Source: Streptomyces sp. NBC_00670
GTDB taxonomy: Bacteria > Actinomycetota > Actinomycetes > Streptomycetales > Streptomycetaceae
Direction of reading: 5' to 3'
DNA length: 64,000 nt
Assembly (NCBI RefSeq): GCF_036226765.1
Contig: NZ_CP109017.1
Span: forward strand, 5,891,001 to 5,955,000
Shown here: in pieces, positions 4,578-21,633 of the stretch
Layout of the letters: the number at the start of each line of letters is the position of its first letter
Position numbering within the stretch: position 1 is the stretch's first letter
The notes under the pieces: generated by a model
Told to the model about the DNA's origin: nothing
The model's input: the letters and a program-made list of their open reading frames with translations, nothing else
Databases searched by the model: none
Program-made: the position numbers and the translations under genes

Positions 4578-4991
4578 CTACGCCGCAGCCGCACCCCTTT
4601 TGTTCCGCCGGCGGAACACCTTGCGGCGCGGCTCCTGCTCCGGCACCCACCCGAACATCAGGCACGCCCCGACCAACCCCAGCAACAACCCCACCAGGAA
4701 CCCACCGAGGTTCGACGTCAGCCACGTCCCCAGCGTCGACAACGCCCCCACCACCGAATAGAACAACCGCTGCCCGGGACTCACCAGCGCCAGCACCCCG
4801 CACAGCACCATCACCGACGGCAGCAGATACCCCGCCACCCCCTGCATCCCGACATGCAGCACCACCTTCAACGACGCCTTCTCCGTCAGCAGGATCTCCC
4901 CGCCGGCCAGCGCCAGCAGCACCCCACCCCAGAACGGCCGCCGCGCCCGCCACCGCCGGAACCGGCCGCCGCCACCACCACCGGAACCCAC
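4578..4991 (-). CDS. DUF6114 integral membrane protein
   Basis: A 137-residue membrane protein with about four hydrophobic segments (around residues 20-36, 44-70, 76-92 and 95-115) and a basic C-terminal tail with RRKVFRRRNKR. It matches my memory of the DUF6114 family, which is found almost always directly behind a DUF6230 gene, as here: its GTG start follows the upstream stop codon by one base, so the two must be translated together. No biochemical function is known to me. The glycine-rich N-terminus is likely cytoplasmic. Confidence 0.85.
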   Translation of the reverse strand: MGSGGGGGGRFRRWRARRPFWGGVLLALAGGEILLTEKASLKVVLHVGMQGVAGYLLPSVMVLCGVLALVSPGQRLFYSVVGALSTLGTWLTSNLGGFLVGLLLGLVGACLMFGWVPEQEPRRKVFRRRNKRGAAAA

Positions 4992-19632: not shown

Positions 19633-19724
19633 CCGTGGGGTGCGGCCCCGTTGACGCGGGCACCGGTAGTGACTGAATGTAGAGGCCCGCTGCACAACAC
19701 GTACAACCGACGGAGTCACCCCGC

Positions 19725-19738
19725 GGAGGTGCGCCCTG
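19725..19738 (+). promoter_or_regulatory. GGAGG ribosome binding site before a CTG start
   Basis: GGAGG at 19725-19729 is followed by six bases and then CTG at 19736. The frame is open from a stop at 19670, and between that stop and 20507 there is no in-frame ATG, GTG or TTG. Because conserved peptidase sequence fills the frame before 20507, this site fixes CTG 19736 as the likely start. Confidence 0.75.
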
Positions 19739-21163
19739 CCCACGCTCCGCCGCTACCCCACCGTCGACGCCCTCGCCACCCACGCCGCCACCCTCACCGC
19801 CCGCCACCCCCGCACCGCCCGCCTCCGCCACGCCGGCACCTCCCGCGCCGGTACCCCCCTCTGGCTGCTCTCCGTCGGCCACGGCCCCCGCCACGCCCTC
19901 GTCGTCGCCGGCCCGCACGCCAACGAACCCGTCGGCGGCGCCACCGCCCTCCGCCTCGCCGAACGCCTCCTCACCGGCCCGCCACCCGCGGGCGACGACG
20001 CCGACGTCACCTGGAACTTCCTGCTCTGCCTCGACCCCGACGGCGCCCGCCGCAACGAGGCCTGGCTCTCCGGCCCGTACACCCTCGGCAACTACTTCCG
20101 GAACTTCTTCCGCCCCGGCTTCGCCGAACAGCCCGAATGGCTCCCCGACGGCGCCGACCGCGCCGCCCTCCCCGAGACCCGCACCCTCCTCGCCCTCCAG
20201 GACGAACTGCGCCCCTTCTTCCACTGCTCCCTGCACGGCGTCGACGTCGGCGGCGGCTTCGTCGAGCTCACCCGCGACCTGCCCGGCCTCGACCGGCGCG
20301 TCGCGCACGCCGCCGCCCGCCTCGGCATCCCGCGCGAACTGGGCCCGTACGACACCCTGTACTGGCCCAGCCTCGGCCCCGCCGTCTACCGCATCCCGCC
20401 CCCGCGCCGCGGCGACCTCGCCGCCGCCATCACCGAGGCCGCCGTCGAGTCCACCTGGTACCACCCGCACCGCTACGGCACGGCCACCGCCGTCGTCGAG
20501 GCGCCCATGTGGGGCGTGCCCGCGGTGGCGGACGCCTCCCCGGCCACCGACCCTGAAACGTTTCTGCGCACCGTCGCCCGCACCCTGCGCCACGACACCC
20601 GGCTCCTCGACGGCATCCTCGCCCGGCTCCGCCCCCACCTGGCCGGCGTCCCCGACGCCGACCGGCTGCTCGCCCCGGTGGACGACTATTTACTGGTCAG
20701 CCCTGGCCTGGCCGACTCCTGGGACCCCGATGTGCACGACCCCGCGGCCCGGCCGCTGCCGATGTGCGACACCGCCCATCTGACCGCGCTCGGCATCTCC
20801 GGGCGCCGGGTCGCCCTGCGCACCGCCGGGCTGCTGCACCGGCTCGCGACGGCCGCCGGACCCGCCGCGGCCGGGCTGCTGCCACGGCTCGACTCGCTGA
20901 TCGACGGCTGGTGCGCGGAGTACCGCGACCAGTACGGAGCGCGCTGGATCCCGGTCGCCCGCCAGGTGGAGTACCAGTCGCGCGTCGTCCTCGCCGCCTG
21001 CCGGCTGGCCGCGCGGCGGCCCGCGGAGCGGCCACCGGCGGCCGGGCGCGAGGCGCCGGAGGGCCGGCGGCCGGCCCCGGTGCCGCCGCCCGCGGACGCC
21101 CGGCCCCGAACGGGTGAGCCGGAGTGGGGCGCGGGCGCCGCCGTGCCGATGCACAGGGAATGA
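19736..21163 (+). CDS. M14-family zinc carboxypeptidase, CTG start, TTA codon
   Basis: The 475-residue product has the M14 zinc site: His61 and Glu64 in GPHANEP, His167 in CSLHGVDVG, and a likely catalytic Glu255 in VVEAPMWG. No signal peptide is evident, so it may be cytosolic. The start appears to be CTG 19736 with an ideally placed GGAGG; starting at ATG 20507 would delete all zinc ligands. Codon 319 is TTA (20690-20692), rare in streptomycetes and read by the bldA tRNA, so expression is expected late in development. The stop overlaps the next gene's start as ATGA. The last 60 residues are proline/arginine rich. Confidence 0.82.
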   Translation: MPTLRRYPTVDALATHAATLTARHPRTARLRHAGTSRAGTPLWLLSVGHGPRHALVVAGPHANEPVGGATALRLAERLLTGPPPAGDDADVTWNFLLCLDPDGARRNEAWLSGPYTLGNYFRNFFRPGFAEQPEWLPDGADRAALPETRTLLALQDELRPFFHCSLHGVDVGGGFVELTRDLPGLDRRVAHAAARLGIPRELGPYDTLYWPSLGPAVYRIPPPRRGDLAAAITEAAVESTWYHPHRYGTATAVVEAPMWGVPAVADASPATDPETFLRTVARTLRHDTRLLDGILARLRPHLAGVPDADRLLAPVDDYLLVSPGLADSWDPDVHDPAARPLPMCDTAHLTALGISGRRVALRTAGLLHRLATAAGPAAAGLLPRLDSLIDGWCAEYRDQYGARWIPVARQVEYQSRVVLAACRLAARRPAERPPAAGREAPEGRRPAPVPPPADARPRTGEPEWGAGAAVPMHRE

Positions 21164-21633
21164 CGAGAACGACCACCGCGCTCCACGCCGCCCTGCTCGC
21201 CGCCGTCACCCTGCTGGCCGCGGCCCCCGCCCACGCCGGCACCGCACGGCACGTCCCGGGCAACCACCTTTCTCTGACCCTGACCCGCGGCGACGCCCGC
21301 TCCCACGACACCAGTGGCACCCTCCTGCTGTGCGACCCGCCCCAGGGTCACGCGCACGCCCGCCGCGCCTGTGCCGAACTCGCGGCGGCCGGCGGCGACA
21401 TCGACCGCATCGCGCAGCGGGACACGTACTGCCCGATGGTCTACGCCCCGGTCACGGCGGCGGCCCGGGGGGAGTGGGACGGCCACCGGGTGGCGTACGA
21501 GCGCACGTTCCCCAACCGGTGCGTGCTCGACGCCCGTACGGGCGCGGTCTTCGCGTTCACCGACGAGATCCCCGAACTGCCCGACCGCCCGGTCCCGGGC
21601 CTGCCGCAGGGCCCCGTGCCGGGGCTGCACTGA
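21160..21633 (+). CDS. Subtilisin-inhibitor-like (SSI) secreted protease inhibitor
   Basis: The 157-residue precursor has a signal peptide cleaved probably after AHA (residue 26). The mature part matches the SSI family: four cysteines (58, 71, 91, 121) for two disulfides, the reactive loop CPMVYAP with P1 Met93, and the W106-x-G and YERTFPNRC signatures. A Met P1 favours subtilisin-like proteases. SSI proteins normally end near FAF; here FAF (131-133) is followed by 24 extra residues rich in proline. The ATG overlaps the carboxypeptidase stop, so translation is coupled. Confidence 0.92.
   Translation: MTRTTTALHAALLAAVTLLAAAPAHAGTARHVPGNHLSLTLTRGDARSHDTSGTLLLCDPPQGHAHARRACAELAAAGGDIDRIAQRDTYCPMVYAPVTAAARGEWDGHRVAYERTFPNRCVLDARTGAVFAFTDEIPELPDRPVPGLPQGPVPGLH

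Follow-up and report, generated by a model that had tools for sequence, protein, structure and literature searches.

In Streptomyces coelicolor, bldA is the only tRNA that reads UUA, and TTA codons have been proposed to act by polarity on the downstream genes of an operon (PMC2000904, in excerpt). The same excerpt reports that the SSI protein SCO0762 of this species was lower in a bldA deletion, and lists it under adpA control. Misreading of UUA is reported for bldA mutants (excerpts of PMC4932002 and PMC3814723), and an adpA-gusA fusion was ~15-fold weaker, yet not silent, in a bldA deletion (excerpt of PMC3814723). Eleven conserved TTA codons have been described in a survey of 213 species that considered an orthogroup only if half of the species or more had the TTA (excerpt of PMC10327506), a threshold that makes the absence from that set of the peptidase gene analysed here uninformative.

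Within the window (the whole 64 000-nucleotide stretch of Streptomyces DNA analysed), a zinc-carboxypeptidase gene, M14a (19736–21163, plus strand), runs for 475 codons from a CTG start to a TGA stop at 21161–21163 and is followed on the same strand by a gene for an SSI-family inhibitor (21160–21633; alternative GTG start at 21124). The first was assigned by a fold match and by Pfam (PF00246 Peptidase_M14, E = 1.1e-9), the second as PF00720 SSI (E = 7.9e-24). The initial annotation had the inhibitor start overlapping the peptidase stop as ATGA and described the inhibitor as TTA-free; the ATG at 21160 and the TGA at 21161–21163 are indeed read directly, and the SSI ORF contains no TTA. The pair is flanked by treZ on one side and by treY and glgX on the other, an FHA-domain gene adjoining treZ.

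Orthologues were compared across 81 loci, i.e. the window plus the best 80 of 272 confirmed loci. SSI is kept in 67/81, and all 67, the window included, display the ATGA junction, the overlapping stop and start of translationally coupled pairs, and an SSI gene without TTA. The gene is absent from 13 loci of a single clade and decayed in a further locus (L057). The SSI-less clade (L087, L091, L093, L098, L100, L102, L103, L105, L110, L111, L114, L117 and L122) retains M14a and its paralogue M14b, with the TTA codon remaining in 4/13. The window's genome also encodes a second, diverged SSI-family protein (L002:1324-1797), the gene of which has no TTA. A conserved RNA structure at the M14a–SSI junction was sought by covariation, which was absent (0/9 pairs). 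As one part of the overall explanation that we favour, M14a and SSI with their ATGA junction would rather probably constitute a conserved Streptomyces operon.

The start of M14a is unusual. Its frame contains no ATG, GTG or TTG before 20507, and standard start codons give only a 218-amino-acid ORF from that position; the codon number of 319 given to the TTA in the initial annotation thus implies a CTG start at 19736. A GGAGG ribosome-binding site (19725–19729, plus strand) lies 6 nt 5′ of this CTG, in a conserved GGAGGTGYGCC-CTG arrangement, and the start codon is CTG in 80/81 orthologues and TTG in the remaining one, L090 (window plus best 80 of 272). In many orthologues, the 90 nt 5′ of the CTG include an ATG, TTG or GTG in frame; the window has none there. 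The conserved block 5′ of the start comprises TTGACG, GTGACTGACTG and the ribosome site, and a putative promoter-like element, TTGACG ... GTGACTG (19651–19675, plus strand), is conserved upstream of the orthologues; a simple sigma-70 scan returned no match at this element. Across the region corresponding to 19651–19735, most orthologues carry a TGTGC-N9-GCACA dyad 5′ of the CTG, beside the TTGACG block. Gene finders restricted to ATG, GTG and TTG starts can miss the catalytic half of a gene that begins, like this one, at a conserved CTG.

Counted from the CTG at 19736, codon 319 of M14a is the TTA that the initial annotation had reported (20690–20692, plus strand), an in-frame codon of the kind required of bldA-dependent (UUA-controlled) genes. 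That annotation had also named the bldA tRNA as its reader, and a gene for this tRNA-Leu(UAA) is present in the window's genome, outside the window (G000:C1:3006708), where a DNA query located it and pattern searches gave no match. TTA occupies one alignment column in 51/81 orthologues (window plus best 80 of 272), and these 51 are the only TTA among 4,966 Leu codons, with none in the 4,894 Leu codons of the other columns. This column is the largest codon-usage deviation of M14a (4.14 bits, against a mean of 0.35), and representatives below 93% DNA identity, drawn from the same best 80 of 272 plus the window, retain TTA in 34/48. Conservation in one column and the codon-usage deviation rule out a single TTA arisen by chance. 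Sampling bias from the use of the best 80 of 272 loci was also considered and set aside, as genomes G001-G105 of the genus, taken in number order and searched as 11 + 43 + 51 genomes, encode M14a in 24/105 and still show TTA in 18/24, a tally that includes two loci (L035 and L133) imperfectly aligned near an indel or the start.

The codon is dispensable, given the ~13 changes of TTA needed on the orthologue tree (window plus best 80 of 272) and its absence from 30/81 loci, where the column holds CTC (13), GTA (4), CTG (4), GTC (3), CTA (3), TTG (1), ATA (1) or GCA (1). No significant link was found between loss of TTA and loss of SSI in the same set (P = 0.085; independent pairs uninformative). 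The occurrence of Val, Ala and Ile codons among the replacements would suit a relic that is neutral or being lost slowly, or a stretch of AT-rich DNA unconnected with bldA, an explanation that leaves the zero TTA at 4,894 other Leu codons (window plus best 80 of 272) unaccounted for and that also has to be weighed against the bases flanking the codon.

The codon before the TTA is TAT (20687–20689, plus strand), which is co-conserved with it and sets it in a T-TTA-C context. TAT precedes the column in 46/51 TTA rows vs 7/30 others, the base before TTA is T in 47/51 M14a sequences (both for the window plus best 80 of 272), and on independent pairs TAT and TTA co-occurred in 6.3 vs 0.0 of 10 (median P = 0.031). 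In a paralogous peptidase gene, M14c, codon 138 is TTA in 10/10 genomes that possess the gene (including L141:1477-2733 and L162-L166), a position at which M14b relatives have other residues; none of the five M14c loci tested, out of the 10, had an SSI gene beside M14c. TCT precedes this TTA in 7/10 M14c genes, and the seven TCT codons among their 187 Ser codons all sit there. The idea of a shared context was formed on M14a and M14c, and adpA was checked afterwards, which makes adpA its sole independent test. TTA was present in adpA in 24 of 30 genomes; the next base was C in 24/24, and the codon before it was TCT in 22 cases and TCA in 2.

The six adpA genes without TTA are L216, L217, L218, L219, L222 and L225. 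Five of the six corresponding genomes (G012, G038, G054, G074 and G083) are all of the tested genomes with M14c, which in them bears TTA.

In the window's own genome, a sample of ~1.66 Mb gave 59 TTA codons (that of M14a included) in 1,006 ORFs called by a crude caller: T stood before 12 of them, C after 35, and both flanked five, one being M14a, i.e. 4/58 of the other TTA codons. Within the sample, T precedes TTA fairly often (20%, vs 3.8% of all codons), but the T and C pair is not common. A second paralogue, M14b (~43% identical to M14a, GTG start), lies on the minus strand, convergent to M14a, in 70/81 loci (L045-L122; window plus best 80 of 272), and was not found adjoining the M14a–SSI pair in the window. 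Its 70 sequences contain 12 TTA codons, eight of which share a column where TTG is the usual codon; a fixed regulatory codon was accordingly rejected for M14b, since a one-step change from TTG suffices.

The relic explanation gains from the joint change of TAT and TTA, as one DNA tract or one recombination event would produce, and loses from the recurrence of T-TTA-C in two paralogues and adpA at unrelated sites, which a common tract or a single relic does not explain; we consider it quite improbable. In our reading, the conserved T-TTA-C pattern reflects selection for control of the peptidase by bldA. A bolder proposal, which we advance only tentatively and think somewhat doubtful on balance, is that U-UUA-C constitutes a decoding context marking regulatory UUA codons, selected independently in adpA, in the peptidase–SSI operon and in the paralogous peptidase. 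Such a context would tune how strictly a UUA waits for the bldA tRNA and, with the CTG start, would form a two-step translational throttle on peptidase and inhibitor. Silov et al. 2021 reportedly treats TTA codon context, so that part of the context rule may already be published. T-TTA-C offers a concrete rule for separating regulatory from incidental UUA codons, and it bears on the debate over whether bldA genuinely serves regulation (quoted in an excerpt of PMC3814723).

From the sequence, direct control of M14a by bldA is likely, and bldA control of SSI, which the initial annotation had suggested, is plausible. When charged tRNA-Leu(UAA) is scarce, ribosomes would pause at codon 319, about two-thirds of the way along M14a, leaving the peptidase unfinished and the 3′ part of the mRNA untranslated. 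Ribosomes failing to reach the ATGA would make SSI poorly, through lost reinitiation at a presumed coupled junction and through polarity, with loss of the distal mRNA; as the bldA tRNA rises, peptidase and SSI would both be made, with a timing and a developmental role that are likewise presumed. The explanation that we hold to be the most credible, with confidence somewhat above even, is accordingly worded as a gate: the bldA tRNA would control the whole M14a–SSI operon by a pause at the TTA, and SSI would be lowered by lost reinitiation together with polarity. The extension of control from the peptidase to SSI would probably proceed by such coupling or polarity. The gate may lower expression by degrees instead of closing fully, given the misreading of UUA reported in the excerpts of PMC4932002 and PMC3814723. 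Were UUA leaky in the T-TTA-C context, its regulatory effect might even be small, as this mistranslation and the residual activity of the adpA-gusA fusion could suggest (excerpt of PMC3814723); adpA, whose control by bldA is proven in the literature, has identical flanking bases, and even a 15-fold reduction amounts to strong control, so that we regard a small effect as very improbable.

A further question is whether SSI could escape the gate. A patch conserved at the nucleotide level lies 53 nt before the SSI ATG (21107–21117, plus strand; CGAACGGGTGA in the window and CGTTCGGGTGA in most orthologues). The patch (CGTTCGGGTGAG) occurs at the same position, with at most one mismatch, in 65 of the 80 orthologues (best 80 of 272), and with two mismatches in the window; its codon-usage deviation points to conservation beyond the amino acids, and, read in the SSI frame, it includes a TGA and is followed by an in-frame NTG. 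The patch may be an initiation site for SSI, or an operator, and gives the competing explanation its chief foothold. The TTA might then gate the peptidase alone, with SSI largely bldA-independent through its own start region (the CGTTCGGGTGAG patch, the NTG at −36, or the ATG) or through an internal promoter. This would agree with the decay of the patch in most SSI-less orthologues and with the opening of the SSI frame at the same TGA in 67/67 SSI-bearing loci, and agrees less well with a simple scan, covering few Streptomyces promoters, in which no internal sigma-70 promoter or terminator for SSI was detected. Moreover, the patch and both SSI starts lie within the peptidase ORF, so that loss of upstream translation would still expose them to polarity. 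We judge an independently expressed SSI to be unlikely, and retain the gating of both genes as the preferred reading.

As proteins, the two products do not form an obvious enzyme–inhibitor pair. A structure model of M14a built on 35 sequences (mean pLDDT 75.1, pTM 0.80) matched metallocarboxypeptidases with Z ~20 over ~245 residues at 12–19% identity. His61, Glu64, His167 and Glu255 are invariant in the 35 sequences, and we take them to be the zinc-ligand HxxE...H and catalytic Glu positions of M14; with the M14 fold, they place M14a among the M14 metallocarboxypeptidases. Codon 319 falls in a helix (308–329) of the C-terminal helical part of the model, residues 431–475 form a predicted disordered tail (pLDDT < 50), and no signal peptide is visible by eye. 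The N-terminus of SSI, also judged by eye, resembles that of a secreted protein. In alignment with a solved SSI, four Cys were found in 67/67 and a P1 Met in 54/67 of the SSI-bearing loci (from the window plus best 80 of 272), and the SSI domain, the four Cys and the reactive-site Met-hydrophobic pair together identify an SSI inhibitor. The family is presumably MEROPS I16, and the reactive-site roles of its positions are our assumption. SSI proteins are inhibitors of secreted serine proteases. M14a, a metallopeptidase without a visible signal peptide, is therefore unlikely to be the target of an inhibitor that looks secreted. The pairing of 'a protease and a protease inhibitor' in the initial annotation misleads if taken to mean a protease with its own inhibitor.

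If the preferred reading is correct, the bldA tRNA would act on an SSI inhibitor gene in cis, in addition to its known indirect action through adpA. Our literature searches showed no description of the M14a–SSI operon, nor of a TTA codon in a zinc carboxypeptidase. The type of switch is known; what appears to be new, with a reservation for the work on TTA context, is its target operon, together with the conserved CTG start and the context shared with other genes.

Among described systems, adpA (bldH) resembles M14a in its single conserved bldA-read TTA, with C after and a T-ending codon before (22/24 in adpA). The product of adpA is a regulator, and the TTA lies between the parts that encode its two domains (excerpt of PMC4255298), whereas M14a is a structural gene 5′ of an inhibitor gene, with its TTA in the C-terminal helical part. 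The carboxypeptidases A, B and T share the M14a fold (Z ~20 over ~245 residues), although M14a differs from them in its low identity (12–19%), its C-terminal helices, its disordered tail and the lack of a signal peptide by eye. S. coelicolor Sti (SCO0762) and other SSI proteins share with the window SSI the family, the four Cys and the P1 Met (54/67); SCO0762 depends on bldA through adpA (excerpt of PMC2000904), whereas for the window SSI the TTA lies in cis, in the joined gene. The closest likeness in operon behaviour is to SCO0381-0401 and SCO0991-0995, in which an effect of bldA was proposed to spread to TTA-free genes on the same mRNA (excerpt of PMC2000904); there the spread was proposed from measured expression, whereas for M14a–SSI it is read from the sequence and the ATGA overlap.
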